NCBI RefSeq assembly: GCF_900185725.1
Contig: NZ_FYAU01000043.1
Span: forward strand, 1 to 41,725
Source: Stappia sp. TSB10P1A
GTDB taxonomy: Bacteria > Pseudomonadota > Alphaproteobacteria > Rhizobiales > Stappiaceae
DNA length: 41,725 bases
Direction: 5' to 3'
The translations under genes were made by a program, and so were the position numbers. Under the pieces are notes generated by a model. That model did not search any database. It was given only the letters and a program-made list of their open reading frames with translations, and had not been told where the DNA came from. Of the stretch, positions 6,342 through 23,845 are shown in pieces; within the stretch, counting starts at the first letter, position 1; each line of letters opens with the position of its first letter.

Positions 6342-6378
6342 GGGTCACCGCCTGTCGGAAGCGGGCCCCGTAGGCCCT

Positions 6379-6426
6379 CGGCTCGCCGATCCCGGATCGG
6401 CGCTGCGCGCCGTCCGGGAGGACGCC
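6379..6426. repeat. Dispersed palindromic repeat, copy R1
   Basis: Intergenic element after cysK with complementary arms CCCGGATCGGCG (6391-6402) and CGCCGTCCGGG (6409-6419), flanked by CGGCTCGCCGAT and GACGCC. It is the opposite orientation of the element at 18493-18540 (shared blocks GGCTCGCCGATCCCGGA and TCCGGGANGACGC, read on opposite strands). It could fold as a hairpin at the cysK/maiA convergent junction. Confidence 0.75.
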
Positions 6427-6504
6427 AGGAAGGGGTGGGCGCGTGGGGTGCGCGGATGGACGGCCCTGCGGGGCCGGGCGTCTGCGCCCCCAACACGCCC
6501 CGCC

Positions 6505-7152: not shown

Positions 7153-7274
7153 CGATCTCTCTCCCGTGAAGGTTTCTCTGCCGCCGGGCGGCCTGTTCCC
7201 CCGCATATCGCATGGCCGCCGCCGCCGGCCAAGTGCTGCCGGGATCGGCCGGAGATGGACGCCGCACAAAAAAT

Positions 7275-7290
7275 TTGACTATTTGGTCAA
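7275..7290. promoter_or_regulatory. RutR-like operator upstream of preT
   Basis: TTGACTATTTGGTCAA, one mismatch to the E. coli RutR consensus TTGACCANNTGGTCAA. Symmetry extends outwards through AAT/ATT flanks. It lies about 234 bp before the preT ATG, and matching sites lie beside the two TetR genes at 15122 and 15155. Confidence 0.8.
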
Positions 7291-7343
7291 AATTCGGCCC
7301 AATGACCCCGGACGCGCTCCCAACCAACGAGGCGCGCGCCATT

Positions 7344-7382
7344 GAGATCTTCTTGGCAGATCTGCCGAGGAGATCTGCCAAG
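7344..7382 (+). repeat. Three 13-bp direct repeats forming a leader hairpin
   Basis: Units GAGATCTTCTTGG, CAGATCTGCCGAG and GAGATCTGCCAAG sit head to tail, each with AGATCT at the same place. Within them CTTGGCAGATCT (7352-7363) and AGATCTGCCAAG (7371-7382) are perfect 12-bp complementary arms around a 7-nt loop; GGCAGATCTGCC (7355-7366) is itself a palindrome. It lies between the operator and preT, so it would be in the mRNA leader if transcription starts near the operator. Confidence 0.8.
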
Positions 7383-7523
7383 CAAATCGCCAGAGCCGGC
7401 GCAGGCCGACAGCGGGACCCCCTTCCGGTCCCGGTCCGACGACGAAACGGATCGCCTGCGCTCCAGAGGAGAACATCGACGCCGGACCCGCGGCAGCGGC
7501 CCGGCGCTATCGGAGGTGCAGCC

Positions 7524-8879
7524 ATGGCTGATGCACTCGTGACCCCCGACATTCGCGCGGGGCGCCTGACGGCCGACGACTACCTGGAGAATTTCGAGGA
7601 CCTGCATCCGCCGCTCGGCGTCCATGAGGCGCGGGTCGAGGCGGATCGCTGCTATTTCTGCTACGACGCGCCCTGCACGATCGCCTGTCCGACCTCGATC
7701 GACATTCCGAAATTCATCCGCCAGATCGCCACCGGCAATCCGCTCGGCTCGGCCAAGACGATCTTCGAGCAGAACATTCTCGGCGGCATGTGCGCCCGCG
7801 TCTGTCCGACGGAAACGCTGTGCGAGGAGGCCTGCGTGCGCAACCTCGCCGAGGACCGGCCCGTGTCCATCGGCCTGCTGCAGCGCCATGCGACGGACAC
7901 GTTCCTCGCACGCGGGGCAGCGCATCCTTACGAGCGTGCAGCGCCCACGGGCAAGCGCGTCGCCGTCGTCGGCGGCGGCCCGGCCGGGCTTTCCTGTGCC
8001 CATGCCCTGGCGCGCCAGGGCCATGACGTGACGATCTTCGAGGCCCGTCCCAAGCTCGGCGGCCTCAACGAATACGGCATCGCCGCCTACAAGACGACGC
8101 AGGATTTCGCCCAGGCGGAGGTCGACTTCGTCCTTTCGATCGGCGGCATCACCGTGGAGTGTAACAAGGCGCTCGGCCGCGACGTCACGCTGGAGGGCCT
8201 GCGCCGCGACTTCGACGCGGTGTTCCTCGGCATGGGGCTCGGCGGCGTCAATGCGCTGAAGACCGAGGGCGAGGATCTGGCCGGCGTCATCGACGCGGTC
8301 GCCTATATCGCCGAGCTGCGCCAGGCGCAGGACCTCTCCGCCCTGCCGGTCGGCCGCAAGGTCGTGGTGATCGGCGGCGGCATGACCGCCATCGACATCG
8401 CCGTGCAGATCAAGCGCCTCGGCGCCGAGGAGGTGACCATCGCCTATCGCCGCGACCGCGAGGCGATGAAGGCCAGCGCCTATGAGCAGGAGATCGCCCT
8501 GACCAACGGGGTGGTGATCCGCGAGTGTCTGGCGCCGCGCCGGCTGATCGGCGAGGGCGGCCATGTGCGGGCCATCGAGCTGGAGCGGATGCTGCCCGAC
8601 AGCGCCGGCCGGCTGACGGGAACCGGCGAGACGGTCACGCTGGAAGCGGACCAGGTGTTCAAGGCGATCGGCCAGACCTTCGTGCCGGACGCGCTGGGCG
8701 GCGGCGAGGCGCTGGAGCTCGACGGCGGCCGGATCGGCGTCGATGCCGACCGCCGCACCTCGCTTGCCGGCGTGTGGGCCGGCGGCGATTGCGTCGCCGG
8801 CGGCGAGGACCTGACGGTCGCCTCGGTCGAGGACGGCAAGATCGCCGCGGCCTCGATCCATGCGGCGCTGACCGCCTGA
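7524..8879 (+). CDS. preT: NAD-dependent dihydropyrimidine dehydrogenase, subunit PreT
   Basis: 451 residues, the NAD(H)/FAD subunit of bacterial dihydropyrimidine dehydrogenase, which with PreA reduces uracil and thymine. The N-terminal domain has Fe-S cysteines at 43, 46, 51, 55 (CYFCYDAPCTIAC) and 90, 94, 100, 104 (CARVCPTETLCEEAC). An FAD site VAVVGGGPAGLS follows near 147-157 and an NAD(P) site VVVIGGGMTAIDIAV near 279-293; the end has GVWAGGDCVAGGEDLTVASV, typical of the glutamate synthase small-subunit family. The start at 7524 follows CGGAGGT. preA is 65 bp downstream, so the two form an operon, probably under the operator at 7275. Confidence 0.94.
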   Translation: MADALVTPDIRAGRLTADDYLENFEDLHPPLGVHEARVEADRCYFCYDAPCTIACPTSIDIPKFIRQIATGNPLGSAKTIFEQNILGGMCARVCPTETLCEEACVRNLAEDRPVSIGLLQRHATDTFLARGAAHPYERAAPTGKRVAVVGGGPAGLSCAHALARQGHDVTIFEARPKLGGLNEYGIAAYKTTQDFAQAEVDFVLSIGGITVECNKALGRDVTLEGLRRDFDAVFLGMGLGGVNALKTEGEDLAGVIDAVAYIAELRQAQDLSALPVGRKVVVIGGGMTAIDIAVQIKRLGAEEVTIAYRRDREAMKASAYEQEIALTNGVVIRECLAPRRLIGEGGHVRAIELERMLPDSAGRLTGTGETVTLEADQVFKAIGQTFVPDALGGGEALELDGGRIGVDADRRTSLAGVWAGGDCVAGGEDLTVASVEDGKIAAASIHAALTA

Positions 8880-8944
8880 GCGCGGCAGGACCCCTGGCAA
8901 CCCCGTACCTTTCACTCCCGAACATCCGTGGGGAGGATTCTCAG

Positions 8945-10255
8945 ATGGCCGATCTTCGCAGCAATTTTCTCGGCATCAAGTCGCCGAACCCGTTCTGGCT
9001 GGCCTCCGCGCCGCCGACCGACAAGGAATACAACGTCGTCCGCGCCTTCAAGGCGGGCTGGGGCGGCGTCGTCTGGAAGACGCTGGGCGAGGACCCGGCG
9101 GTGGTCAATGTCAACGGCCCGCGCTACGGCGCGATCCACGGGCCGGACCGCTCGCTCATCGGGTTCAACAATATCGAGCTGATCACCGACCGCCCGCTGG
9201 AGGTGAACCTGCGCGAGATCAAGCAGGTCAAGCGCGACTGGCCCGACCGGGCGCTGGTCGTCTCGCTGATGGTGCCCTGCGAGGAGCGGAACTGGATCGA
9301 TATCCTCAAGCGCGTCGAGGAGACGGAAGCCGACGGCGTCGAGCTGAACTTCGGCTGTCCGCACGGCATGTCGGAGCGCGGCATGGGCTCGGCCGTCGGC
9401 CAGGTGCCCGAATATATCGAGATGGTGACGCGCTGGTGCAAGCAGCACACGCGCATGCCGGTGATCGTCAAGCTGACGCCGAACATCACCGACATCCGCA
9501 ACCCGGCCCGCGCCGCCCATGCGGGCGGGGCGGATGCCGTGTCCCTGATCAACACGATCAACTCCATCGTCTCGGTCGATCTCGATCAGATGGCCCCCTA
9601 TCCGACCATCGACGGACAGGGCGCCCATGGCGGCTATTGCGGCCCGGCGGTGAAGCCGATCGCCCTCAACATGGTCGCCGAGATCGCCCGCGATCCGCAG
9701 ACGCACGGCCTGCCGATCTCCGGCATCGGCGGCGTGACGACGTGGCGGGACGCGGCCGAGTTCATGGCGCTGGGCGCCGGCACGGTGCAGGTCTGCACCG
9801 CGGCGATGACCTATGGCTTCCGCATCGTCGAGGACCTGATCGACGGCCTGTCCGACTGGATGGACGAGAAGGGCTACACCTCGATCGACCAGGTGGTCGG
9901 GCGGGCGGTGCCCAAGGTCACCGACTGGCAGCGGCTCAACCTCAACTATGTGGTCAAGGCGCGCATCGACCAGGACGCCTGCATCAAGTGCGGCCGCTGC
10001 CACATCGCCTGCGAGGACACCTCGCACCAGGCGATCACCGCGATGAAGGACGGCTTGCGCCATTTCGAGGTGATCGACGAGGAATGCGTCGGCTGCAACC
10101 TGTGCGTCTCGGTCTGTCCGGTCGAGGACTGCATCACCCTGGAGCAGATCACCGAGGGCAGCGACCCGCGCACCGGCAAGCCGATCAACCCGAACTACGC
10201 CAACTGGACGACCCATCCCAACAACCCGAACCGGGTGGCGGAAGCGGCCGAGTGA
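8945..10255 (+). CDS. preA: NAD-dependent dihydropyrimidine dehydrogenase, subunit PreA
   Basis: 436 residues, the FMN-containing catalytic subunit plus a C-terminal ferredoxin. The barrel (about 1-330) starts [20 protein letters not shown] and contains [37 protein letters not shown] and [11 protein letters not shown]. Two 4Fe-4S motifs follow: C346, C349, C352, C356 ([11 protein letters not shown]) and C381, C384, C387, C391 ([11 protein letters not shown]). By eye the active-site cysteine of mammalian enzyme (GLACGQ) corresponds to Val151 here (GSAVGQ). GGGAGG at 8931-8936 precedes the ATG. It lies directly after preT and a rho-independent terminator follows at 10316. Confidence 0.95.
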
Positions 10256-10315
10256 TCGAAGGGAGCCTGTCGGCGGCGCGGTAACGGTCGCCGCCAACGG
10301 GCACCAACTGCGAGG

Positions 10316-10346
10316 CCGGGTCCGTCCGCGCGGCGGGCCCGGTTTT
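10316..10346 (+). terminator. Terminator after preT-preA
   Basis: Stem CCGGG (10316-10320) with CCCGG (10338-10342), extended by CCG/CGG and CC/GG pairs with one wobble and one bulge, loop GCGC, followed by TTTT at 10343-10346. Confidence 0.7.
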
Positions 10347-10463
10347 GTCGTTTCCGGCGCGGCGCTGGTTCGCAGGTTCCCCTGCGTTAACCCGATCTTG
10401 GCAGTTTGCGGCGATCAATCGCTCGGGGAGACGGGAGACCACGCCTGGAGGTCCGGCGAACTT

Positions 10464-12545
10464 ATGACCAAGATCAGCGTATCCACCATTCTGCGCGCCT
10501 CGTTCCTGGGGTTCACGCTGGCGATCGGGGTGTTGCTCGCCCTGTCGGCCCGGTCGGCCTGGACGGAGTTCCAGACCGCCCGTCAGGTGCAGGACATCGC
10601 GCGGATCGCGGCGCCGCTGCTCGATACCCTGCTGTATCTGCGCCTCGACCGCGGCAACAGCTTCCGCGACCTGAAGGCGGATGTGGTCGGCCTGACGGAG
10701 CGCACGCGCGAGTTGCGCCTTGCCGGCCGCTCGGCGGCCGAGCGGGTGGTGAGCGCCATCGAACAGTCCTCGATCAGCGACCGCGACGCCCGGCTGGCGG
10801 AATTCACCGGCGCGCGCGACCGGCTTTTCGCGCTGATGCAGGAGGTCGACGCCGCGCTGGAGCAGACGGATGCGGCCCGGCGCGGCGCGGTGGCCGAGCG
10901 CTGGCGCGATGAGCTGACCAGCCAGATCAACGCCAATTTCGCCTTCGCCGGCGAGCTCGGCACCCGCGTCCAGTACAAGGATCCGGTCGTCGACGCGCTG
11001 CTTGCGGCCCAGTCCGCCGCCCTGGATGCGCGCAGCACGGCGGGCGAGGCCTCGCTTCTCGTCTCCAACGCGACCTCCGGCGTCGCGCTGCCGGACGATG
11101 CCACGCGCAGGTTCTACGGGTCCACGGCCTCCGCGCTGGCGTCGCTGAAGATGGCCCGGTCGCTGCTCGGCGACCTGCCGCTGTCGCCAGGGCTCGCCAA
11201 GGCCTTCACCGATACGGATGCGATCTACAATGCCGGCTTCCGCGAGCTGAGCGAGCGCCAGTTCCTGGCCCTGCAGGCCGGCACCACCCCGCCGCTCGCC
11301 CTGCCCGAGTGGATGGCCGCGACGCTGCCCACGCTCGACGCCATCGCCTCCATCGCCATCGAGGCGCTGGCCCAGGCCGAGGTCGCGGCGGCGGAAACCG
11401 CCGCTGCCGCCGAGGCGCATGTCTATCGGCAGCTCGGCTTTCTCGGCATCGGCTTGGTGCTGGCCGCGCTGCTGCTGTTCCTGGTCGGCCGCCGGGTGAC
11501 CGGGCCGCTCGGCGTGGTGACCGAGCGCATGCGGCTGCTGGCGGACGGCCAGCTCGACACGCAGGCGCCCTTCGTCGACCGGCAGGACGAGATCGGCGCG
11601 CTTGGCCGGGCGCTCGCCCTGTTCCGCGAGAACGCGCTGGAAACCGAGCGGCTGCGCCAGCGCGAGGCGGAGAAGGAGCGCGATGCCGCCGAGACGCGGC
11701 GGGCCGACATGATGCGCCTGGCCGACAGTTTCGACGAGGCGGTCGGCTCGTCGGTGAGCGCCCTGACCCAGGCGGCCGAGCGGCTGAAGAGTACCGCGTC
11801 GGGCCTGTCGAGCGTCGCCGAACGCACCTCGGGGCAGGCGATCGCCGTTGCGGCGGCCTCCGAACAGGCCTCCGCCAATGTCGCCTCCGTCGCCGGCGCG
11901 ACTGAGGAACTGTCGTCCTCGGTGACGGAAATCCGCAGCCAGGCCGGCCGCTCGAGCGAGATCGCCGAGACGGCGGTGGCCGAGGTGGAAGAGACCAACA
12001 AGCAGGTGGCGGGGCTCGCCGCCGCCGCCGAGCGCGTCGGCTCGATCGTCATCATGATCGAGGACGTCGCGGCCAAGACCAACCTTCTGGCGCTCAACGC
12101 CACCATCGAGGCGGCGCGGGCGGGCGAAGCCGGCAAGGGCTTCGCCGTCGTCGCCGGCGAGGTCAAGCAACTGGCCGACCAGACCGCCAGGGCGACCTCC
12201 GACATCAGCAGGCAGATCGCCGACATGCAGGCGGCCTCGCTCGGCGCGGCCGAGGCGATCAAGGCGATCGGCGAGACGATCCGCCGGATGAGCGACATCT
12301 CGTCCGAGATCTTCGACTCGGTCGGCAGCCAGGGCCAGGCGACGGTGGAGATCGCGCGCAATGTCGCCGAGGCCTCCACAGGCACGGCCGACGTCTCGCG
12401 CAACATCTCCGGGGTCACCGCCGCGGCCTCCGACGCCAGCGAGGCGGCAAGCGAGGTGCTGGCGGCGGCCTCGCAACTGTCCGACCAGTCGGCGGCGCTG
12501 TCACGGCAGATCGAGAGTTTTCTCGGTCACGTGCGGGCGGCTTGA
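10464..12545 (+). CDS. Methyl-accepting chemotaxis protein
   Basis: 693 residues. TM1 lies at about 9-29 and TM2 at about 324-344, enclosing a roughly 290-residue, mostly helical periplasmic sensor of unrecognised class. A HAMP domain follows ([20 protein letters not shown], then [16 protein letters not shown]) and then the cytoplasmic coiled-coil signalling domain (about 420-693) with the hairpin tip around [20 protein letters not shown]. No C-terminal CheR/CheB-binding pentapeptide is seen (ends GHVRAA). GGAGGT at 10447-10452 precedes the ATG. It lies inside the pyrimidine locus, behind the preTA terminator, so pyrimidine taxis is a possible but unproven role; MCP genes are often scattered. 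Confidence 0.93.
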
Positions 12546-12589
12546 CCGCCCGCAGAAAAACCAAGCTAGCGGGCGGCGTGACCGCCCGC
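12533..12589 (+). terminator. Hairpin carrying the MCP stop codon, repeated 36 bp on
   Basis: GCGGGCGG (12533-12540), loop CTTGA holding the stop TGA, CCGCCCGC (12546-12553), then AGAAAAA. The same structure recurs at 12569-12589 with loop CGTGA; the 36-bp offset keeps the second TGA in frame. Probably a transcription terminator or 3'-end protector, although the downstream tract is A-rich rather than T-rich on this strand. Confidence 0.6.
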
Positions 12590-12601
12590 GGAAGGGGTTC
12601 T

Positions 12602-12717
12602 AGAGCATATTCCGTTCAGATCGAACCGATCTGAACGACAAGAATATGCTCAAGGTATTGAATTTGGAGCGATTTCTTATCGATCAGGTGATTCCACCTG
12701 ATCGGAAAGCGCTCTAG
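12602..12717. repeat. Rhizobiales-type dispersed palindromic repeat
   Basis: Two adjoining hairpins. The first pairs GAGCATATTC with GAATATGCTC and, inside, GTTCAGATCG with CGATCTGAAC (12603-12652). The second pairs CGATCAGGTG (12681-12690) with CACCTGATCG (12695-12704), with outer arms GAGCGATTTC/GAAAGCGCTC differing by one base. I recognise this AGAGCATATTC...GCGCTCTAG organisation as an interspersed repeat seen in many Rhizobiales genomes. Its right end overlaps the stop codon of the transglycosylase gene (12714-12716). Confidence 0.8.
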
Positions 12718-13529
12718 CGGCGCAGCTCGCTCGCCATATGGGCGATGGTGCGGCGATAGACCTCCGCCCGGTTCCAGTCGCGCAGCACCCCGTAATTGTG
12801 GCTGCCCGGCGCCCAGTCGCCGCCGGGCTTCCAGCCGTGCTGGCGCAGGAAATTGGCGGTCGAGGCAAAGACGTCCGCATGGCTGTGGATCAGGTTCGGC
12901 CGGCCGTCGCCGTCGAAATCGACCGCAAAGCGCTCGTAGCTGGAGGCGAGGAACTGGGTCTGGCCGATCTCGCCGGCCCAGGCGCCCTTCATCTCGGAAA
13001 TCCGCATGAAGCCGCGGTCGGCGATCCTGAGCGCGCTCATCAGCTCTTTGGTGAAGAACTCGGAGCGGCGGCAGTCATAGGCGAGCGCCGAGAGCGAGGA
13101 GAAGATCGGGATGTCGCCCATGAAGCCGCCGAAGCCCGATTCCAGCCCCCAGATCGCGACGATGATCTCCTTCGGCACGCCATAGCTGCGCTCGACCCGG
13201 TCGAGCAGCACGGCGTGCTGCTGCAGCCGCCGCTTGCCCATGGCGATGGTCGAGGGCGGCGCGCGGCGGGCGAGGAATTCCTCGAAGGACAGTTTGAAGG
13301 ATTTCTGGTTGCGGTCGAGCCGGATCACCCGGCTGTTATAGGTCATGCCGCCGAGCGCCGCCTCCACCGTGCGGCTGGAAATGCCGGCGGCCACCGCCTC
13401 GCGCTTGAAGCTGGCGAGCCAGGCCGGGAAGCCGGCGGCGTTGTTGCCGCATTTGGCGGCGAGCGCCGGGCCGGCCAGCGTCAGCGGGGCAAAGAGCAGA
13501 AGGGCGGCGAAAACGAGGGCCTTGCGCAT
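12714..13529 (-). CDS. Exported lytic murein transglycosylase (MltB-like)
   Basis: 271 residues with a Sec signal peptide (about 1-24, ending AGPALA). The mature protein is the SLT_2 domain: FPAWLASFKREAVAAGIS, VIRLDRNQKSFKLSFEEFLA, then YGVPKEIIVAIWGLESGFGG, which contains the catalytic Glu, GEIGQTQFLASSY and VDFDGDGRPNL. It cleaves peptidoglycan glycosidic bonds to 1,6-anhydromuropeptides in the periplasm. It is shorter than E. coli MltB and lacks the peptidoglycan-binding domain found in some relatives. GGGAGA precedes the start. The stop TAG is supplied by the end of a dispersed repeat. No functional link to the neighbouring pyrimidine genes is evident. Confidence 0.92.
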   Translation of the reverse strand: MRKALVFAALLLFAPLTLAGPALAAKCGNNAAGFPAWLASFKREAVAAGISSRTVEAALGGMTYNSRVIRLDRNQKSFKLSFEEFLARRAPPSTIAMGKRRLQQHAVLLDRVERSYGVPKEIIVAIWGLESGFGGFMGDIPIFSSLSALAYDCRRSEFFTKELMSALRIADRGFMRISEMKGAWAGEIGQTQFLASSYERFAVDFDGDGRPNLIHSHADVFASTANFLRQHGWKPGGDWAPGSHNYGVLRDWNRAEVYRRTIAHMASELRR

Positions 13530-13617
13530 GCGGTCTCCCGGTCGGGTCGCAGGGTCGATCGGGGACGGCGACGCACGTCCCTTGCAAAAAAGCAGGATAC
13601 AGGCGGTAAGGGCAAGA

Positions 13618-14334
13618 TCAAGGCGAACCGGGCCGAGGCAGCAGCCCGCCGAAGATCAGGTCGGTCAACGCCTGCAGCGCCTGGCGGCGGAACGCCTCGT
13701 CATGGACGCCGGTGCCGGTGATCGCCTCGATCTGCGGCGCGAAGTCGGCATAGGTCTGGGTCGTCGCCCAGATCAGGAAGATGAGGTGGGTGGGATCGAC
13801 CGGCCGGATGCGGCCGCGCTCCGCCCAGTGGCGCAGCACCTGCGACTTCTCGTCGACCAGCGCCTTCAGCGGTCCTGCCAGCACGTCGCGGATCACCGGC
13901 GCGCCCTGCAGCATCTCGTTGGCGAAGAGGCGTGAGGCCTGCGGATAGTCGGCGGAAAATTGCAGCTTCTGCTCGATATAGGCGGTGAGTTCCTTGCGCG
14001 GGTCGCCATCCGGATCGAGCGTGCGCAAGGGCGCCAGCCAGCGGTCGAGCAGGTCGGCGAGCACCGCCTTGTAGATCTCCGACTTGGAGCCGAAATAATA
14101 GAGCAGGTTCGACTTCGACATGCCCGCGTCCTCGGCGATCTGGTCGACGCGGGCGCCGCGATAGCCGAAGCGCGAGAAGGTGCCGAGCGCCGCCTCCAGG
14201 ATGCGGGCGCGGTTCTTCTCCTGGATGCGGGTGCGCGGGGCGCCGTCGCTTTCGGGCTCGGTGCCTGCGTCCGGTATCCGGCCTGCCTCCATCTGCTGCT
14301 GTCCTTCGCTGTCGGGCGCCATTGCGGCGGTCAT
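13618..14334 (-). CDS. rutR: RutR-like TetR-family regulator
   Basis: 238 residues. After a variable, acidic N-terminus of about 35 residues, the HTH region FGYRGARVDQIAEDAGMSKS and LLYYFGSK (about 57-84) is followed by a C-terminal domain closely resembling E. coli RutR: DYPQASRLFANEMLQGAPVI, LVDEKS, DPTHLIFLIWATTQTYADFA and QIEAITG. RutR senses uracil/thymine and represses or activates pyrimidine genes. The start at 14334 overlaps the stop of the upstream paralogue as ATGA; Met15 (14292) is an alternative. Three palindromes fitting the RutR consensus are at 7275, 15122 and 15155, giving it obvious targets. Confidence 0.9.
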   Translation of the reverse strand: MTAAMAPDSEGQQQMEAGRIPDAGTEPESDGAPRTRIQEKNRARILEAALGTFSRFGYRGARVDQIAEDAGMSKSNLLYYFGSKSEIYKAVLADLLDRWLAPLRTLDPDGDPRKELTAYIEQKLQFSADYPQASRLFANEMLQGAPVIRDVLAGPLKALVDEKSQVLRHWAERGRIRPVDPTHLIFLIWATTQTYADFAPQIEAITGTGVHDEAFRRQALQALTDLIFGGLLPRPGSP

Positions 14335-15062
14335 CGGGCCGCGCCGTTGCGGGCGGCAGCATCGCGCGGCGGCCCGGCGGCGGCAAGCCCGGCCGGGGGG
14401 ACAGCGCCGATGCCGGCGAGGATGATGCCGGTCACCGTGCGCTTGGCCTCCTCGAACTGGGCATCGGAGAGCGGCCGGCCGCCGTTCAGCGTGTCGATCT
14501 GGTGGTTGAAGTCGGCATAGTGCTGGGTCGTCGCCCAGATCATGTAGAGCAGATATTGCGGGTCGATCGGCGCAATCCGGCCGCTGGCGATCCAGCGCTC
14601 GATCACCGCGACGCGGGAGGCGGTCCACTCGCGCAAGGTGGTCTCCAGATAGTCCTGGATCACCGGCGCCTTGTGCAGGATCTCGTTGGCCCAGACCTTG
14701 GAGCCCATCGGATGGGCGCGCGAGATGTCCATCTTCTTGGCGATGTAGCTGGTCAGCGCCTCGACCGGATCGTCGCTCTCGTCGAAGGAGTTCGCCGCCT
14801 CCAGCCAGATGTTGAAGATATGCTCGACCACCCGCCGGTAGAGCACTTCCTTGGTCGGGAAATAATAGTGCAGGTTGGCCTTGGGGATGCCGGCCCGGTC
14901 GGCGATCATGCCGGTGGTGGCGCCGCGAAAGCCGCTCTGCGCGAAGACCTCCTCGGCCGCCTTGAGGATGACGCGCTCGTTCTCCGCCCGGATCGCGCTC
15001 TTCTGCGTCCTGTCCGGTATTCGGGCCTGCGCCCTGCCTTTTAACCTGTCCGTGCCGCTCAT
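14331..15062 (-). CDS. Second RutR-type TetR regulator, paralogue of the next gene
   Basis: 243 residues. HTH about 46-70 (FRGATTGMIADRAGIPKANL, then HYYFPTKEVLY). The C-domain has WANEILHKAPVIQDYLETTL, IDPQYLLYMIWATTQHYADF and NHQIDTLNGGRPL, the same TetR_C subfamily as RutR but clearly diverged from its neighbour. Translation starts at 15062 right behind GGAGAG and ends overlapping the rutR start (ATGA), so the two proteins are probably made together. Its own gene start is 60 bp from operator 15122-15137, suggesting autoregulation. A basic, proline-containing N-terminus of about 25 residues precedes the HTH domain. Confidence 0.88.
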   Translation of the reverse strand: MSGTDRLKGRAQARIPDRTQKSAIRAENERVILKAAEEVFAQSGFRGATTGMIADRAGIPKANLHYYFPTKEVLYRRVVEHIFNIWLEAANSFDESDDPVEALTSYIAKKMDISRAHPMGSKVWANEILHKAPVIQDYLETTLREWTASRVAVIERWIASGRIAPIDPQYLLYMIWATTQHYADFNHQIDTLNGGRPLSDAQFEEAKRTVTGIILAGIGAVPPAGLAAAGPPRDAAARNGAAR

Positions 15063-15121
15063 CTCTCCGGGCCGTCCGCTGCGGTGAGTGCCAATTCGGC
15101 AGGCGAGCCGAAAAAATGATC

Positions 15122-15137
15122 TTGACCGGATGGTCAA
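15122..15137. promoter_or_regulatory. RutR-like operator B
   Basis: TTGACCGGATGGTCAA, a perfect TTGACC/GGTCAA palindrome with one mismatch to the RutR consensus (G for A at position 7). It overlaps the proposed -35 of the mmsA promoter. Confidence 0.85.
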
Positions 15138-15150
15138 GCCTTCCTACGCT
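15122..15150 (+). promoter_or_regulatory. Putative promoter for mmsA and downstream genes
   Basis: -35 TTGACC (15122-15127) and -10 TACGCT (15145-15150), 17 bp apart. The -35 is within operator B and the likely start near 15157 is within operator C, so a bound regulator would cover both ends. The -10 is a weak match. Confidence 0.4.
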
Positions 15151-15154
15151 CGAT

Positions 15155-15170
15155 TTGACCATTTGGTCAG
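15155..15170. promoter_or_regulatory. RutR-like operator C
   Basis: TTGACCATTTGGTCAG, one mismatch (last base) to the RutR consensus. Its centre is 33 bp, about three helical turns, from that of operator B, which would place two dimers on the same face of the DNA. Confidence 0.85.
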
Positions 15171-15485
15171 GTTTTTCCGCCTGGCGCAATGGCAAAGACG
15201 CGACTGACCAAGCGACTGGCAACCCGGCGGGCACAACAGACCGGGGCCGCGCACCTTTCAGATTTCGGCCGGAGCGCGAGGACGCGAAGGCCGCCCGGAT
15301 GGCCGAACCATCCGGAACGGGGAATGGCCGGCGGCGCGACCAGCGCTGCCCGATGCCGGAGAGGCATCGAGGGAGAGGACAGGAGAGGCCGGCGCGCGTG
15401 CGTGGCTTCCCGCCGATCCCGGCCGCGATCGCAGACGCACGAGGGCGCCCGGAACCGCATGTCGCGCCGGGCGAGCGGAGGGAAC

Positions 15486-16997
15486 ATGCCGAAGTCCGGC
15501 CTTGCCAACATCGAGAACGCCATCGGCGGGGCGCGTGTCGTCTCCCGCTCGACGAGGACGCAAGCGGTGTTCAACCCGGCGACGGGCGAACAGACCGCGG
15601 TCCTGCCGCTGTCGAGCGCGGCCGAGGTCGGCGAGGCGATCGCCGCGGCCAAGGCCGCCTTCCCGGCCTGGCGCGACACGCCGCCCTTGAAGCGCGCGCG
15701 CATGATGTTCCGTTTCAAGGAACTGCTCTCCGCCCATGCCGACGACATCGCAAGGGCGATCTCGGCCGAACACGGCAAGACCCATGACGATGCCTTGGGC
15801 GAAGTGGCGCGCGGCATCGAGGTGGTGGAATTCGCCTGCGGCATCCCGCATCTCTTGAAGGGCGAGTTCGCCCGCAATGTCGGCCCGGCCATCGACAGCC
15901 ATTCCGACCGCCAGCCGCTCGGCGTCGTCGCCGGCATCACCCCGTTCAACTTCCCGGCGATGGTGCCGCTGTGGATGTATCCGATCGCGGTTGCCTGCGG
16001 GAACACCTTCGTGCTGAAGCCGTCCGAGCGCGACCCTTCCGCCGTCATGGCGGTCTATGACCTGTTCCACCAGGCCGGCTTCCCGGACGGGGTGCTCAAT
16101 GTCGTGCATGGCGACAAGGAGGCGGTCGACGTGCTGCTGACCCATCCGGACGTCAAGGCGGTGTCCTTCGTCGGCTCCACGCCGATTGCCGAATATGTCT
16201 ATGCGACCGGCACCGCGCATGGAAAGCGGGTGCAGGCGCTGGGCGGCGCCAAGAACCACATGATCGTCATGCCGGATGCCGACATGGACCAGGCCGCCGA
16301 TGCGCTGATGGGCGCCGGCTACGGCTCGGCCGGCGAGCGCTGCATGGCGATCTCCGTCGCCGTTCCCATCGGCGAGGAGACCGCCGACCGGCTGGTGGAA
16401 AAGCTCGTCCCCCGCGTGCAGGCGCTGAAGATCGGCCCGGCGACCGACCGCGAGGCGGAGATGGGCCCGCTGGTCACCGAGGCGCATATGCGCAAGGTGC
16501 TCGGCTACATCGACCAGGGCGTCAAGGAAGGCGCCGAGCTGCTGGTCGACGGGCGCGGCTTCTCGCTGCAGGGCTACGAGAACGGCTATTTCGTCGGCGG
16601 CACCCTGTTCGACCGGGTGACCCGCGACATGACGATCTACCGCGAGGAGATCTTCGGTCCCGTCCTGTCGGTGGTGCGCGCCAAGGGCTACGACGAGGCG
16701 CTGTCGCTGATCAACGAGCACGAATACGGCAACGGCACCGCGATCTTCACCCGCGACGGCGATGCCGCGCGCGCCTTCGCCGACCGGATCGAGGTGGGCA
16801 TGGTCGGCATCAACGTGCCGATCCCGGTGCCGGTCGCCTATTTCTCCTTCGGCGGCTGGAAGCGCTCGCTGTTCGGCGACCATTCGATCTACGGCATGGA
16901 AGGCGTGCGCTTCAACACGCGCCTGAAGACGGTGACGACGCGCTGGCCGGCCGGTATCAAGGACGGCGCCGTCTATACCTTTCCCAACATGGAGTGA
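15486..16997 (+). CDS. mmsA: CoA-acylating methylmalonate/malonate-semialdehyde dehydrogenase
   Basis: 503 residues, aldehyde dehydrogenase superfamily, MmsA branch. Visible: [14 protein letters not shown], the Rossmann region [62 protein letters not shown] and the catalytic Cys286 in AGERCMAIS. It converts malonate semialdehyde or methylmalonate semialdehyde with CoA and NAD+ to acetyl-CoA or propionyl-CoA plus CO2. These are the products expected from uracil and thymine after transamination of beta-alanine or beta-aminoisobutyrate, fitting its place here. Start at 15486 after GGAGGGA; an in-frame ATG at 15459 has no better signal. The amidohydrolase gene follows 43 bp later. Confidence 0.95.
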
Positions 16998-17040: not shown

Positions 17041-18291
17041 ATGACCGCACCGGGCAAGAACCTGCGCATCGACGCCGACCGCCTGTGGGACGCCCTGATG
17101 GAGATGGCGAAGATCGGTCCGGGCGTTGCCGGCGGCAACAACCGCCAGACGCTGACCGATGCCGACAACGAGGGGCGCAAGCTGTTCCAGGCCTGGTGCG
17201 AGGCGGCCGGGATGAGCATGGGCGTCGACACCATGGGCAACATGTTCATGACGCGGCCGGGCACCGATCCGGACGCCCTGCCGGTCTATGTCGGCTCGCA
17301 TCTCGACACCCAGCCGACGGGCGGCAAATATGACGGCGTGCTCGGCGTGCTCGGCGGCCTGGAACTGGTGCGCACCCTCAACGACCTCAACATCCGCACG
17401 AAGCGGCCCATCGTCGTCGCCAACTGGACCAACGAGGAGGGCACGCGGTTTGCCCCCGCCATGCTGGCCTCCGGCGTCTTTGCCGGGGTGCACGACCTCG
17501 ACTGGGCCTATGCGCGCAAGGACGCGGACGGCAAGACGGTCGGCGAGGAGCTGAAGCGCATCGGCTGGGTCGGCGAGGAAGCGGTCGGCGCGCGCAAGAT
17601 GCACGCGATGTTCGAACTGCATATCGAGCAGGGGCCGATCCTGGAGGCCGAGGGCAAGGATATCGGCGTCGTCACCCACGGCCAGGGCCTGTGGTGGCTG
17701 GAAGTGACGGTGACCGGCAAGGACAGCCATACCGGCTCGACGCCGATGCCGATGCGCCGCAATGCCGGCCTCGGCATGGCGCGGATGACCGAGCTGGTGC
17801 ACGAGATCGCGATGCGGCACCAGCCGCGCGCGGTCGGCGCCATCGGCCATTGCGACGTCTATCCCAACTCGCGCAACGTCATTCCCGGCAAGGTGGTGTT
17901 CACCGTCGACTTCCGCTCGCCCGACCGGCAGACGCTGGACGCGATGAAGGCGGAGTTCGAGGCGCGGGCGCCGAAGATCGCCGAGGATCTGGGCTTGATG
18001 GCGACGATCGAGGCGGTCGGCCATTTCGATCCCGTGACCTTCGACGAGACCTGCGTCAAGGCCGTGCGCAATGCCGCCGAAAAGCTCGGCTACAGCCACA
18101 TGGACATCATCTCCGGCGCCGGTCACGATGCCTGCTGGGTCAACAAGGTCGCCCCGACGGCGATGATCATGTGCCCCTGCGTCGACGGGCTGTCGCACAA
18201 CGAGGCCGAGGAGATTACCAGGGACTGGGCGCGGGCCGGCGCCGACGTGCTGCTGCATGCGGTGCTGGAAGCGGCGGAGATCGTGGAGTGA
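17041..18291 (+). CDS. Zn-dependent amidohydrolase, probable N-carbamoyl-beta-alanine amidohydrolase (beta-ureidopropionase)
   Basis: 416 residues, M20/hydantoinase-carbamoylase family. Metal-site motifs: GSHLDTQPTGGKYDGVLG (His87, Asp98), NWTNEEGTRFAPAM (Glu132, Glu133), HIEQGPILE and, near the end, SGAGHDACWVN and DGLSHNEAEE. The dimerisation domain includes GKDSHTGSTPMPMRRNA and SRNVIPGKVVFTVDFRSPD. Relatives hydrolyse N-carbamoyl-beta-alanine, N-carbamoyl amino acids or allantoate; next to preTA and hydA, N-carbamoyl-beta-alanine and its methyl homologue are the likely substrates, releasing ammonia and CO2. It lies 43 bp after mmsA with a ribosome site GAGGGAG. A 666-bp repeat/GIY-YIG interval separates it from hydA. 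Confidence 0.92.
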   Translation: MTAPGKNLRIDADRLWDALMEMAKIGPGVAGGNNRQTLTDADNEGRKLFQAWCEAAGMSMGVDTMGNMFMTRPGTDPDALPVYVGSHLDTQPTGGKYDGVLGVLGGLELVRTLNDLNIRTKRPIVVANWTNEEGTRFAPAMLASGVFAGVHDLDWAYARKDADGKTVGEELKRIGWVGEEAVGARKMHAMFELHIEQGPILEAEGKDIGVVTHGQGLWWLEVTVTGKDSHTGSTPMPMRRNAGLGMARMTELVHEIAMRHQPRAVGAIGHCDVYPNSRNVIPGKVVFTVDFRSPDRQTLDAMKAEFEARAPKIAEDLGLMATIEAVGHFDPVTFDETCVKAVRNAAEKLGYSHMDIISGAGHDACWVNKVAPTAMIMCPCVDGLSHNEAEEITRDWARAGADVLLHAVLEAAEIVE

Positions 18292-18840: not shown

Positions 18841-18896
18841 TTGTGGCTCTCCGGTCCCGGGTCGCGGCTTCGCCTTGCCCGGGATGACGCCGGAGG
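18841..18896. repeat. Dispersed palindromic repeat, copy R4 (right direct repeat)
   Basis: Identical over 56 bp to R2 at 18331-18386. It begins one base after the GIY-YIG stop codon, in the gap before hydA. Confidence 0.92.
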
Positions 18897-18957
18897 GGGG
18901 CGCGAGCAGCACGCGGGTGAGTTGTCAGGAAACGACAGACGAGATTGGGGAACGGCG

Positions 18958-20415
18958 ATGGCGAGCAAAGTGATCAAGGGCGGAACGGTCGTCACGGCCG
19001 ATCTCACCTACCGCGCGGATGTGAAAATCGACGGCGGCAGGATCGTCGAGATCGGGCCGGACCTTTCCGGCGACGAGGTGCTCGACGCGACCGGCTGCTA
19101 CGTGATGCCGGGCGGCATCGACCCGCATGTGCACCTGGAAATGCCCTTCATGGGCACCTATTCCGCCGACAATTTCGAGAGCGGCACGCGCGCCGCGCTT
19201 GCCGGCGGCACCACCATGGTGGTGGATTTCTGCCTGCCTTCGCCCGGCCAGTCGCTGCTGGAAGCGCTGACCATGTGGGACAACAAGTCGACCAGGGCCA
19301 ATTGCGACTACTCCTTCCACATGGCGATCACCTGGTGGGGCGAGCAGGTGTTCAACGACATGGAAGCGGTGGTGCGCGACAAGGGCATCAACAGCTTCAA
19401 GCATTTCATGGCCTACAAGGGCGCGCTGATGGTGGACGACGACGAGATGTTCGCCTCGTTCCAGCGCTGCGCCGAGCTCGGCGCCCTGCCGATGGTGCAT
19501 GCGGAAAACGGCGACGTGGTCGCCCAGTTGCAGGCCAGGCTGATGGCCGAGGGCAATGACGGGCCGGAAGCCCATGCCTATTCGCGCCCGGCAGAGGTGG
19601 AAGGCGAGGCGACCAACCGCGCCATCATGATCGCCGACATGGCCGGCGTGCCGCTCTATGTGGTGCACACGTCCTGCGAACAGGCGCATGAGGCGATCCG
19701 CCGGGCCAAGCAGAACGGCATCCGCTGCTATGGCGAGCCGCTGATCCAGCACCTGACGCTGGACGAGAGCGAGTATCGCCATCCCGACTGGGACCATGCG
19801 GCGCGCCGGGTGATGTCGCCGCCCTTCCGCGACAAGAAGCACCAGGACAGCCTGTGGGCCGGCCTGCAGGCGGGCACGCTGCAGGTGGTGGCGACCGACC
19901 ACTGCGCCTTTACCACGGAGCAGAAGCGCACCGGGCTCGGCGACTTCACCAAGATCCCCAACGGCACCGGCGGGCTCGAGGACCGCTTGCCGATGCTGTG
20001 GACCCATGGCGTCGCCACCGGCCGGCTGACCATGAACGAATTCGTCGCCGTGACCTCGACCAACATCGCCAAGATCCTCAACATGTACCCGAAGAAGGGG
20101 GCGATCCTGGTCGGCGCCGATGCCGACCTGGTGGTCTGGGATCCGCAGAAGGAAAAGACGATTTCCGCCGCGACCCAGCAGTCGGCCATCGACTACAACG
20201 TGTTCGAGGGCAAAAAGGTGAAGGGCCTGCCGCGCTTCACGCTGACCCGCGGCGAGGTCGCCATCGAGGACGGTGCGATCAAGACGCGCGAGGGGCACGG
20301 CAAGTTTGTCGCCCGCCCGCCGTTCCAGGCGGTCAACGCGGCGCTGTCGACCTGGAAGGAACTGACCTCGCCGCGCAAGGTGGAGCGCTCGGGCATTCCT
20401 GCAAGCGGCGTTTAA
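18958..20415 (+). CDS. hydA: Dihydropyrimidinase (D-hydantoinase)
   Basis: 485 residues, cyclic amidohydrolase fold. Binuclear metal ligands are visible: His57 and His59 in GGIDPHVHLEMPFMG, the carboxylated-type Lys154 in FKHFMAYKGALM, His181 in MVHAENGD, His237 in VVHTSCEQAHEA and Asp314 in VATDHCAFTTEQK. SPPFRDKKHQD and PNGTGGLEDRLPML are also typical. It opens dihydrouracil/dihydrothymine to N-carbamoyl-beta-amino acids, the step between PreTA and the amidohydrolase at 17041. Start at 18958; a longer frame would run back into repeat R4. The next small gene starts 8 bp after its stop. Confidence 0.96.
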   Translation: MASKVIKGGTVVTADLTYRADVKIDGGRIVEIGPDLSGDEVLDATGCYVMPGGIDPHVHLEMPFMGTYSADNFESGTRAALAGGTTMVVDFCLPSPGQSLLEALTMWDNKSTRANCDYSFHMAITWWGEQVFNDMEAVVRDKGINSFKHFMAYKGALMVDDDEMFASFQRCAELGALPMVHAENGDVVAQLQARLMAEGNDGPEAHAYSRPAEVEGEATNRAIMIADMAGVPLYVVHTSCEQAHEAIRRAKQNGIRCYGEPLIQHLTLDESEYRHPDWDHAARRVMSPPFRDKKHQDSLWAGLQAGTLQVVATDHCAFTTEQKRTGLGDFTKIPNGTGGLEDRLPMLWTHGVATGRLTMNEFVAVTSTNIAKILNMYPKKGAILVGADADLVVWDPQKEKTISAATQQSAIDYNVFEGKKVKGLPRFTLTRGEVAIEDGAIKTREGHGKFVARPPFQAVNAALSTWKELTSPRKVERSGIPASGV

Positions 20416-20810: not shown

Positions 20811-20931
20811 CCCGGACGGGCGGGTGCGGGGCGATGGGCACGGATCGAGATGGATGCAGGGAGCCGCAAGTCCGGTCATGATCGCGACAGATGCAAGCAA
20901 GGACGCCGCAAGGGCGACAGGGGACGCAAGG

Positions 20932-21723
20932 ATGACCGGGCCGGAGCGCAGCGTGATCGACATCGAGAACCTGTCGCTGACCTTCGAGACCAATGACGGT
21001 CCGGTGCATGCCCTGTCGGACATCGATCTTTCGATCGGCGAGGGCGATTTCGTCTCGCTGATCGGCCCGTCCGGCTGCGGCAAGACCACGCTGTTGCGGG
21101 TGATCGCCGATCTGGAGGCGCCGACCGGCGGCACGATCAGCGTCAACGGCATGAGCCCGGAGGAGGCGCGGCTGAAGCGCGCCTATGGCTATGTCTTCCA
21201 GGCCGCCGCGCTCTATCCCTGGCGGACCATCGCCGACAACATCGCCCTGCCGCTGGAGATCATGGGTTTTGCGAAGGGAGAGCGCGAGGAGCGCATCCGC
21301 CGCAACATGGAGCTGGTGAACCTCTCCGGCTTCGAGCGCAAATATCCCTGGCAACTGTCGGGCGGCATGCAGCAGCGCGCCTCCATCGCCCGCGCGCTGT
21401 CCTTCGATCCCGACCTGCTGCTGATGGACGAGCCGTTCGGCGCGCTCGACGAGATCGTTCGCGATCACCTCAACGAGCAATTGCTGAAACTGTGGGCCAA
21501 GACCCGCAAGACGGTGGTCTTCGTCACCCATTCGATCCCGGAAGCTGTGTTCCTGTCGACCAGGATCGTGGTGCTGTGCCCGCGTCCGGGCCGCATCTAT
21601 GACGTGATCGAAAGCGACCTGCCGCGCGAGCGCACGCTCGACATCCGCGAGACGCCGGAATTCCTGAAGATCGCCCACCGGGTGCGCGAGGGGCTGCGGG
21701 CGGGGCACAGCTATGACGATTGA
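20932..21723 (+). CDS. ABC transporter ATPase, nitrate/taurine/pyrimidine type
   Basis: 263 residues from the chosen ATG. All ATPase motifs are intact: Walker A LIGPSGCGKTTLL, Q-loop YVFQAAALYPWRT, signature LSGGMQQR, Walker B LLLMDEPFGALDE and the H-loop FVTHSIPEAVFLS. This is the SsuB/TauB/NrtD-like branch used with NMT1-type binding proteins. The start is uncertain: ATG at 20878 is also in frame (18 more residues) and neither has a strong ribosome site. The end overlaps the next permease by 11 bp. Co-location with preTA/hydA suggests it energises pyrimidine or hydantoin uptake (inference). Confidence 0.92.
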   Translation: MTGPERSVIDIENLSLTFETNDGPVHALSDIDLSIGEGDFVSLIGPSGCGKTTLLRVIADLEAPTGGTISVNGMSPEEARLKRAYGYVFQAAALYPWRTIADNIALPLEIMGFAKGEREERIRRNMELVNLSGFERKYPWQLSGGMQQRASIARALSFDPDLLLMDEPFGALDEIVRDHLNEQLLKLWAKTRKTVVFVTHSIPEAVFLSTRIVVLCPRPGRIYDVIESDLPRERTLDIRETPEFLKIAHRVREGLRAGHSYDD

Positions 21724-22636
21724 GGCCTTGACGGCGCCGCCTTCCCGCTCGCCTTTCGCCGGCCTGATGCAGGGCACCGCCGGGCCGGTGCTGGTGGTCG
21801 TCGCGGCGATCATCGCCGTCTGGTATCTGGCGGCGGTGATGCTCAACGCGCCGTTCCAGCGCGACATGTACAAGCGCGGCGGCATTGAGGACGCGCCGCT
21901 GGCGCAGCTCGTCGCCGACACGCTGTCGCAGGACCGGCCCGTGCTGCCCGCCCCGCATCAGGTGGCGGTCGAGCTGTGGGACACCACCGCCAACAAGGCG
22001 GTGACCTCCAAGCGCAGCCTCGTCTATCACGGCGGCATCACCCTGTCCTCGACCCTGCTCGGCTTCGTGCTCGGCACCGCCCTCGGCATCGGCCTGGCGA
22101 TCCTGGTCGTGCACAGCCGGGTTCTCGACAAGAGCCTGATGCCCTGGGTGATTTCCTCGCAGACGATCCCGATCCTCGCCATCGCGCCGATGATCATCGT
22201 GGTGCTGAACGCCATCGGCATTTCCGGCCTGCTGCCGAAGGCAATGATCTCGACCTATCTCTCGTTCTTTCCGGTGACGGTCGGCATGGTGAAGGGCCTG
22301 CGCTCGCCCGAGGCGATCCAGATGGACCTGATGAAGACCTATTCGGCCTCGCCCGCCCAGGCGCTGTGGAAGCTGCGCCTGCCCTCGGCGATGCCCTATC
22401 TCTTCGCCTCGATGAAGGTCGGCGTTGCCGCAAGCCTTGTCGGCGCCATCGTCGGCGAACTGCCGACCGGTGCGGTCGCCGGCCTCGGCGCCCGCCTGCT
22501 GTCGGGCTCCTATTACGGCCAGACGGTGCAGATCTGGTCGGCGCTGATCGCCGCCGCCGTGCTGGCGGCAACGCTCGTGGCGCTGATCGGCGTCGCCGAG
22601 CGGTTGGCGCTGAAGCGCATGGGGATGCGGCGATGA
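21713..22636 (+). CDS. ABC transporter permease 1
   Basis: 307 residues, BPD_transp_1 type with about six membrane segments. TM1 is near 23-43 (VLVVVAAIIAVWYLAAVML); a periplasmic loop of about 60 residues follows, then ITLSSTLLGFVLGTALGIGL. The EAA-like loop is DLMKTYSASPAQALWKLRLP, the contact to the ATPase. It overlaps the ATPase gene by 11 bp and its stop overlaps the start of permease 2 as ATGA. With permease 2 it would form a heterodimeric channel. Confidence 0.92.
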   Translation: MTIEALTAPPSRSPFAGLMQGTAGPVLVVVAAIIAVWYLAAVMLNAPFQRDMYKRGGIEDAPLAQLVADTLSQDRPVLPAPHQVAVELWDTTANKAVTSKRSLVYHGGITLSSTLLGFVLGTALGIGLAILVVHSRVLDKSLMPWVISSQTIPILAIAPMIIVVLNAIGISGLLPKAMISTYLSFFPVTVGMVKGLRSPEAIQMDLMKTYSASPAQALWKLRLPSAMPYLFASMKVGVAASLVGAIVGELPTGAVAGLGARLLSGSYYGQTVQIWSALIAAAVLAATLVALIGVAERLALKRMGMRR

Positions 22637-23811
22637 GCGCGCGGGAGGGGACGACCCCCGCACCGGCGCCGCGGCCGCACCGGCTCGGCGCGGTGAGAAC
22701 CGTGCTGGCCTCGCTGGCGCTCGCCCTCGCCCTGGTCGCGACGATGATGCCGGTGATCGCCTCCGACACGATGGCGCTCGGGCTGCTTGCCTTTCCGCTG
22801 CTGGCGGCAATGGTGCTTGCCGCGGTGATCGTGCTGGCGCCCTATCGCCTGTGCCTGCTGCGCGGGCCGCGGGCCGCCGGCCTGCTCGCGGCCGTTTCCT
22901 ATGCCATGGCCTTCGTGCTGATCTCGCTGATCGCCGCCCATCCGGGCCAGGCGGGATCCGGCTTCTGGGCCCTTGTCGTCGTCGCCTGGGCCATCGCCTG
23001 GCTGTCGGTGGAGGAAATGGCCGGACTGAAGCCCCGGCAGCCGCTGTGGGGCCGCGCCATCGCGCTCGCCATCCCGCTGACCTTCGGCGCCTGGCTGCTG
23101 ATCCTGTGGCAGGTGCTGGTGGTCGGCTTTGCCGTGCCCAAGGTGCTGCTGCCGCCGCCCTCCGACATCTGGGTGCGGCTCATCGCCTCGCCCGAGGTGC
23201 TGTGGGCCGATTTCCGCCAGACCTTCCTGAAGGGGGTTCTCATCGGCTATGCCCTGGGCTGCGGCGCCGGCTTCCTGGTCGCCATCCTGGTCGACCGGGT
23301 GCCGTTCCTGCGGCGCGGCCTGCTGCCGATCGGCAATCTCGTCTCGGCCCTGCCGATCATCGGCGTCGCCCCGATCATGGTCATGTGGTTCGGCTTCGAC
23401 TGGCCGTCCAAGGCGGCGGTCGTCGTCATCATGACCTTCTTCCCGATGCTGGTGAACACGGTCACGGGGCTTGCCGCCGCCGACCGCATGCAGCTCGACC
23501 TGATGCACACTTACGCGGCAAACTATCCGCAGACGCTGCTCAAGATGCGGCTGCCGATGGCCATGCCCTTCGTTTTCAATGCCCTGAAAATCAACTCGAC
23601 GCTGGCGCTGATCGGGGCCATTGTTGCCGAATTCTTCGGCACGCCGATCGTCGGCATGGGCTTCCGCATCTCCACCGAGGTGGGGCGGATGAACATCGAC
23701 ATGGTCTGGGCTTCGATCGCCGTCGCCGCGCTTGCGGGGTCGCTGTTCTACGGCTTGGTGACCCTCGCGGAGCGGGCGGTCACGTTTTGGCATCCGTCAG
23801 TCCGGCGATAA
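22633..23811 (+). CDS. ABC transporter permease 2, with extra N-terminal membrane region
   Basis: 392 residues, longer than permease 1. The first 150 residues hold additional hydrophobic helices (around 20-45, 48-70, 78-100 and 105-125) before the usual permease domain, which starts near LTFGAWLLILWQVLVVGFAV followed by PKVLLPPPSDIW. The ATPase-contact loop is DLMHTYAANYPQTLLKMRLP, near-parallel to that of permease 1. Ends TLAERAVTFWHPSVRR. The start overlaps the upstream stop (ATGA). The role of the N-terminal extension is unknown. Confidence 0.92.
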   Translation: MSAREGTTPAPAPRPHRLGAVRTVLASLALALALVATMMPVIASDTMALGLLAFPLLAAMVLAAVIVLAPYRLCLLRGPRAAGLLAAVSYAMAFVLISLIAAHPGQAGSGFWALVVVAWAIAWLSVEEMAGLKPRQPLWGRAIALAIPLTFGAWLLILWQVLVVGFAVPKVLLPPPSDIWVRLIASPEVLWADFRQTFLKGVLIGYALGCGAGFLVAILVDRVPFLRRGLLPIGNLVSALPIIGVAPIMVMWFGFDWPSKAAVVVIMTFFPMLVNTVTGLAAADRMQLDLMHTYAANYPQTLLKMRLPMAMPFVFNALKINSTLALIGAIVAEFFGTPIVGMGFRISTEVGRMNIDMVWASIAVAALAGSLFYGLVTLAERAVTFWHPSVRR

Positions 23812-23845
23812 CGGGCGGCGGCTGCATCACCAGAGGGAGCAGGAA

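Follow-up and report, generated by a model that had tools for sequence, protein, structure and literature searches.

A putative set of RutR-type operators at the reductive pyrimidine catabolism locus of Stappia sp. TSB10P1A

A stretch of 41,725 nucleotides from Stappia sp. TSB10P1A (NCBI RefSeq assembly GCF_900185725.1, contig NZ_FYAU01000043.1, positions 1 to 41,725; referred to as the window) contains the genes of a reductive pyrimidine catabolic pathway, two overlapping genes for RutR-like repressors of the TetR family, rutR1 and rutR2, and three palindromic boxes. The palindromes probably serve as operators at which TetR repressors of the RutR type regulate this pathway, a reading to which we assign a probability of about 0.85. 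It is carried by the rarity of the boxes in the genome, their conservation and position in related loci, the residues conserved in the two regulators and the gene content of the locus.

The boxes were scored against the pattern TTGACCANNTGGTCAA, which we take to be the RutR consensus of Escherichia coli. According to the original prediction, which was made from the letters of the DNA, each of the three sites differs from this pattern by one base, and both the coordinates and the mismatch counts could be reproduced (Table 1). With up to three mismatches allowed, 11 matches were detected in the window compared to 0.44 expected, and none of 100 shuffled sequences reached this number. At no more than one mismatch, the boxes starting at 7275, 15122 and 15155 are the only matches. 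The first of these is located upstream of preT, as claimed, whereas the wording "exactly before" was generous, with the start of the box 249 bp ahead of the start codon at 7524. The longest preT open reading frame (ORF), beginning at 7212, would include the box; the start was placed at 7524 because the homologues align from there, several of them lacking any longer frame. The other two boxes, A and B, are indeed found between the RutR-like genes and mmsA in a divergent region, 60–108 bp upstream of rutR1 and 316–364 bp upstream of the likely mmsA start at 15486. A box resembling the presumed consensus is thus present at the RutR-like genes' own promoter.

The preT leader furthermore contains a perfect inverted repeat, CTTGGCAGATCT-N7-AGATCTGCCAAG (7352-7382), lying within an insertion. 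Since it is single-copy in the genome and missing from the aligned relatives, it was rejected as a second operator.

The whole assembly (5.13 Mb, 64 contigs) was searched with the same pattern, using the reversed pattern as a control. At up to one mismatch five sites were found, three of them at the present locus, and the control gave none. Together with the conservation and position of the boxes, this agrees with the claim that three such boxes in one locus are not random. The chance figure given for this, one box per 4^12 bases, had the correct magnitude: by arithmetic, a rate of 43/4^14 per position corresponds to about 0.8 sites per genome, and the reversed pattern gave 16 sites in 14 genomes. 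The two strict sites elsewhere are located within an ORF (C28:291399) and upstream of a Rieske gene. When two mismatches were allowed, 25 sites were found with either pattern, so that the two-mismatch sites are regarded as background, with a signal in the strict set only, and the relaxed scan was rejected for finding regulon members. Among the 22 relaxed sites outside the locus, 18 are situated within predicted ORFs, and the remaining four before the Rieske gene, ahead of a BMP-type binding protein gene, at a third RutR-like paralogue and at a position not clearly followed by any gene.

In 14 genomes of the genus, 61 sites with up to one mismatch were detected and divided by position into 41 at the locus (three per genome, two in genome G001) and 20 elsewhere, close to the count for the reversed pattern. 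Abundant sites of equal quality at unrelated genes, named with the original prediction as a result that would refute it, were looked for, and 20 of 61 sites were found outside the locus, 18 of them inside coding-like ORFs. The other two are the Rieske-gene site of the present genome, not seen in the other genus genomes among sites at this threshold, and a site before a BMP-type transporter gene in G001. For the gene with the C28 site (L002 1110-2108), which has no Pfam match at 1e-5, the strict palindrome is also present in the homologues from G008, G009, G012 and G013, over the conserved peptide DQLVK. The assumption that both additional strict sites are unique to the present genome was dropped for this reason.

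Matches to preT at 1e-150 or better were obtained in 38 of 61 genomes, and the best 30 were fetched as loci. A box with up to three mismatches is present in all 30, 52 to 317 bp upstream of the start. In the 18 nearest loci (L049-L066, own included) it has one mismatch throughout and reads TTGACTATTTGGTCAA or TTGACTAATTGGTCAA. In the aligned rows the box is kept while the flanks diverge, with the exception of L054, where it is located outside the 300 bp aligned. In a wider named set of 46 distinct preT upstream regions, 10 contain a box of the TTGACCANNTGGTCAA type (class I) with at most two mismatches and 18 more one with exactly three, compared to 1 of 230 mono-shuffled sequences at up to three.

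For boxes A and B, 110 alphaproteobacterial loci including the window were collected, with overlap between the collections; two were too short, leaving 108 regions (92 distinct). The pair was found with at most six mismatches over its 28 fixed positions in 106 regions (90 distinct). The other two of the 108 have nine, and mono-shuffled controls never fell below this value. In the 90 distinct regions the boxes are spaced by 33 bp in 48 cases, by 34 bp in 34 and by other distances in 8. Four relatives without RutR1 (L184, L186, L188, L190) retained a box and the divergent layout of regulator and catabolic genes; the partner about 33 bp away is clear in L186, has three mismatches in L190, and is no good match in L184 and L188 (five and seven mismatches). 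Furthermore, in two relatives (L185, L187) the gene for the NMT1-like binding protein of the ABC transporter is separated from the locus and is there preceded by a RutR-type box of its own.

Both regulators contain the TetR_N and TetR_C_3 (YcdC-like) domains, and among solved structures E. coli RutR is the best match to both. Judged by its family scores (Table 1), RutR2 is filed as RutR-like only and RutR1 as a diverged paralogue. The uracil site of E. coli RutR comprises W77, W167, Q171, Y97 (through water) and Q179', and DNA is contacted by K52 and K62, according to PMC10891134. After removal of duplicates and of rows with stops or fewer than 150 amino acids, W77, Y97, W167, Q171, Q179 and K62 are kept in 79/79 RutR1 and 85/85 RutR2 rows, and K52 in 79/79 and 84/85 rows, respectively (one K52R). 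These pocket residues suggest that uracil would relieve DNA binding by RutR1 and RutR2. In a tree of 54 of the 166 rows, RutR1 and RutR2 form separate clades (99/96), with E. coli RutR as a long branch on the RutR2 side (98/94). The ATG of rutR2 overlaps the stop codon of rutR1 (ATGA), and the two genes are for this reason probably co-transcribed and autoregulated.

Towards mmsA, box A opens with TTGACC, and TACGCT follows 17 bp further on, which gives the predicted promoter of the mmsA unit. TTGACC-N17-TAnnnT was found in 28/28 distinct regions of a near subset (the window, L020-L048 and L079-L090), and in none with a spacer of 16 or 18. In all 90 regions the combination occurs with a spacer of 17 in 28 and of 16 in 10. 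A weaker promoter signal is seen towards rutR1, with TA at a spacer of 18 in 27 of 90. By eye, L184 retains a bare TTGACC 33–34 bp ahead of its box, as do L185 and L187 ahead of the box of the detached binding-protein gene. Sigma-54 elements were searched for in the two leaders, with no match at up to two mismatches to the consensus. In the predicted mmsA promoter, the start point would fall within box B, and the 33-bp spacing of the boxes would be explained by this geometry, with one dimer at -35 and the other at +1.

The genes of the locus are arranged in the order maiA (minus strand), the 7275 box, preT, preA, a chemoreceptor gene, a lytic transglycosylase gene, rutR2 and rutR1 (all three minus strand), boxes A and B, mmsA, a hyuC-like amidohydrolase gene, the dihydropyrimidinase gene and the ABC transporter genes. 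In the reductive pathway, uracil is converted via dihydrouracil and N-carbamoyl-beta-alanine to beta-alanine, and mmsA finishes the semialdehyde. From its context, the HyuC-like protein presumably performs the step from N-carbamoyl-beta-alanine to beta-alanine. In the present genome, the one genome searched for it, rutA (TIGR03612), the gene of the first Rut enzyme, gave no match, so that control of a rut operon is not a feature of this system. The proposal that a RutR-type box controls the reductive pathway here is consistent with this finding, with the gene content, with the maintenance of the boxes against diverging flanks and with the uracil-pocket residues.

In L080 (8265-9500), L081, L084, L085 and L086 the divergent catabolic unit is headed by a class III (omega) aminotransferase gene, which could supply the beta-alanine transamination step; at this position none was found in the window or in S. 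indica (L079). A gene for a methyl-accepting chemotaxis protein (10398-12545), possibly a pyrimidine chemoreceptor, directly follows preA. It has no match in the S. indica locus L079, where only about 1 kb separates preA from the transglycosylase gene.

Table 1. Predicted boxes, promoter and genes of the locus, and the BMP-type transporter encoded elsewhere in the genome
Feature	Position	Strand	Remarks
RutR-type box before preT, TTGACTATTTGGTCAA	7275..7290	+	1 mismatch to TTGACCANNTGGTCAA
RutR-type box A, rutR1-proximal, TTGACCGGATGGTCAA	15122..15137	.	1 mismatch to TTGACCANNTGGTCAA
RutR-type box B, 33 bp from box A, TTGACCATTTGGTCAG	15155..15170	.	1 mismatch to TTGACCANNTGGTCAA
Predicted promoter of mmsA unit	15122..15150	+	-35 TTGACC 15122-15127, 17-bp spacer, -10 TACGCT 15145-15150
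rutR2, RutR-like TetR repressor	13618..14337	-	NF011584 239.2 bits (cut-off 230); TIGR03613 258.7 bits (cut-off 368); PF08362
rutR1, diverged RutR paralogue	14331..15062	-	TIGR03613 203.9 bits, NF011584 181.3 bits, both under cut-off; PF08362
preT, dihydropyrimidine dehydrogenase NAD(P)-binding subunit	7524..8879	+	Fer4_20, Pyr_redox_2; NF009410 330.7 bits, under cut-off 516; start by homology
preA, dihydropyrimidine dehydrogenase subunit	8945..10255	+	NF006183 748 bits (cut-off 335)
mmsA, CoA-acylating (methyl)malonate-semialdehyde dehydrogenase	15486..16997	+	TIGR01722 727 bits (cut-off 448.5)
hyuC-like amidohydrolase, putative beta-ureidopropionase	17041..18291	+	NF006769 713 bits (named allantoate amidohydrolase), TIGR01879; role from context
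hydA, dihydropyrimidinase	18841..20415	+	ORF, homology starts near 18967; TIGR02033 606 bits (cut-off 393.25)
ABC transporter, putative pyrimidine/dihydropyrimidine uptake	20824..24823	+	ATPase 20824-21723, permease 21713-22636
ABC transporter, further genes	~22851-23849; 23846-24823	+	second permease; NMT1-like binding protein
BMP-type ABC transporter	L212 8641-12574 (G000:C41:401640 on)		RutR-like motif upstream

In the regulation proposed here, dimers of RutR1 and/or RutR2 would occupy the 7275 box when uracil is lacking and silence preTA. Dimers on boxes A and B would cover the -35 region and the start point of the mmsA-hyuC-hydA-ABC promoter, respectively, and at the opposite rutR1 promoter the roles of the two boxes would be swapped. 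Occupation of both boxes would consequently silence the mmsA-hyuC-hydA-ABC and the rutR1-rutR2 units together. Binding of uracil, possibly also of thymine, in the conserved pocket would release the dimers and induce uptake, reduction (PreTA), ring opening (HydA), decarbamoylation (HyuC-like protein) and oxidation of the semialdehyde (MmsA). This scheme is a prediction as to DNA binding and repression, the inducer, the promoter and the ends of the transcripts.

Several points weigh against such a regulon. The role of the boxes as operators is deduced from sequence, gene content and conservation. Neither RutR family cut-off is reached by RutR1, and only one of the two by RutR2. The analysed loci share ancestry, which makes the counts dependent on each other, and 80 loci were selected via RutR1 peptide patterns. 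In genome G001 the counterpart of box A is degenerate (L034/L083, six mismatches in the pair). In Rhodobacterales a different palindrome serves as the preT box, hence the consensus does not hold everywhere. The TTGACC-TAnnnT geometry, in turn, is absent from more than half of all regions, comprising most of those beyond the near subset and above all the ones from Rhodobacterales. A scan with a generic sigma-70 consensus revealed no promoter at either leader. Finally, strict sites elsewhere partly recur across the genus genomes: six are located in one homologous gene (the C28 site of the present genome included), and two further pairs of loci with recurring strict sites are homologous. As all of these lie within ORFs, over conserved peptides such as DQLVK, the recurrence is explained by coding constraint.

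The boxes might instead serve another TetR-family or an unrelated regulator, with the RutR-like genes as neighbours by chance. Many TetR repressors use short palindromes, and three PF08362 proteins are encoded in the genome; the third of these, however, has its own variant palindrome, TTGACGAAGTCGTCAA. This explanation is improbable, as the boxes match the presumed E. coli consensus, are found across Alphaproteobacteria at the promoter of the RutR gene itself and accompany even the detached binding-protein gene in two relatives (L185, L187). A role of the palindromes as RNA hairpins or terminators in the leaders is more improbable still. Box A and a T-run on the minus strand score terminator-like, but the T-run is lost in relatives while the box stays, for which reason a terminator at box A was rejected. 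In addition, the spacing of the boxes in the near subset suits a promoter, and positions 6300-25000 gave no match to known RNA families in Rfam at the gathering score. Chance matches, for which the background frequency of the two-mismatch sites could be cited, are refuted by the conservation and position of the boxes and have a practically negligible probability. Control by RutR-type repressors thus remains the preferred explanation.

A possible refinement, which does not exclude this explanation, concerns the division of labour between the paralogues. Both arms of the preT box have changed in Rhodobacterales and certain other lineages, where it reads TTTAYCRNNYGRTAAA (class II). In 80 loci with RutR1 (1.46 Mb) this pattern gave 40 matches at up to one mismatch, 39 of them before preT, and the reversed control 1; the two rutR1/pyd boxes, in contrast, keep G at position 3 in 90/90 regions. 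Eleven genomes were searched completely: eight from the group of 12 loci in which a single RutR-like match had been obtained, and three with both. Ten of them encode one RutR1-type and one RutR2-type PF08362 protein and have a class II match at preT, without mismatch in nine and with one mismatch, and less clear, in G158. In Fluviibacterium sp. MJW13 (G156; L140, L221), a single RutR1-type protein was found, with no RutR2 in the genome and neither box class before preT. This one case of co-loss is suggestive of RutR2 acting at preT.

RutR2 might accordingly regulate preTA and RutR1 the lower pathway and transport, the operator classes having diverged in Rhodobacterales and being nearly alike in Stappia. 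The distribution of class II sites and the separate clades of RutR1 and RutR2 fit this division, to which we give slightly less than an even chance. Against it stand the single case of co-loss and the relatives possessing only RutR2, with class I-like boxes (up to two mismatches) at both places, because of which RutR2 presumably reads class I. Moreover, no class II site was found in the present genome, and 7 of 34 detached RutR2 promoters contain class I boxes (up to two mismatches). Recognition-helix residues, tried as the determinant of box class, do not follow it cleanly (L092). More tentatively, and with the odds against it, an old RutR duplication may have split the pathway, with RutR2 gating PreTA via its own operator class (TTTAYCRNNYGRTAAA in Rhodobacterales and certain other lineages) and RutR1 controlling ring opening, the downstream enzymes and transport via a double operator straddling the promoter; in Stappia the operators would still be alike and the overlapping pair would cross-regulate the two halves, perhaps as heterodimers.

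The original prediction described the regulon as local. Control of the locus is supported, but "local" is probably too narrow, as a BMP-type ABC transporter encoded elsewhere is preceded by a weaker conserved RutR-like double site. Upstream of its binding-protein gene (C41:401723), a box with one to three mismatches, mostly TTGACCAAACGATCAA, was found in 14/14 Stappia genomes, followed 19 bp on by a second one, mostly TTGTCCATTTGTTCAA, in 13 of the 14. Of seven more distant loci, four contain a box at up to three mismatches and three do not. The transporter could belong to the regulon despite its distance, or it could be controlled by another TetR regulator. The third RutR-like paralogue (L164 6746-13020, G000:C43) has Met in place of Q179 and likely binds a different ligand. 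It is divergent from a gene followed by GMC oxidoreductase and BMP/B6-like ABC genes, with its variant palindrome in between.

The present system shares with E. coli RutR the TetR_C_3 protein with its uracil pocket and DNA-contact lysines as well as a palindrome of about 16 bp at the regulator's own and a catabolic promoter (PMC10891134). E. coli RutR, with boxes at rutR/rutAG and carAB, controls the Rut pathway, whereas the reductive pathway is found here, and its family cut-offs are reached only in part. Unlike the E. coli system, the locus has two paralogues with overlapping genes and two boxes 33 bp apart at a divergent promoter. The title of a study on PydR of Pseudomonas putida (Hidese 2012, cited in PMC7332683) presents this protein as RutR-like and as repressing the dihydropyrimidine dehydrogenase gene. 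Judging from this title, which names no second paralogue, RutR-like control of the reductive pathway is already known in principle, and the position of the preT box agrees with it. RutR regulogs of pyrimidine catabolism were predicted for 68 proteobacterial genomes in 13 taxonomic groups, with 273 sites and 743 genes and with taxon-specific changes of the motif (PMC5343134, RegPrecise). Its site tables (Table S3) may already contain the paralogue pair or the class II motif. A RutR-like motif near small RNAs of Azospirillum is mentioned in PMC7685610. RutR paralogue pairs, alphaproteobacterial RutR control of preTA and the operator-class split were not found among the literature matches listed, the RegPrecise tables and subscription journals being outside the scope; this is weak evidence that the split is new.

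Distinctive of the locus are the reductive pathway instead of Rut, the two overlapping paralogues and the proposed double operator, with the split into operator classes as the point of greatest interest. A concrete, testable regulon is thereby assigned to a RutR-like pair in Alphaproteobacteria, a transporter outside the locus is suggested as a target, and the promoter geometry offers a reason for the fixed operator spacing of 33–34 bp. If true, the split would be a natural series showing how operators and repressors diverge once a duplication has occurred. The paired paralogues and the two operator classes would make a good system for studying how duplicated repressors divide one pathway.

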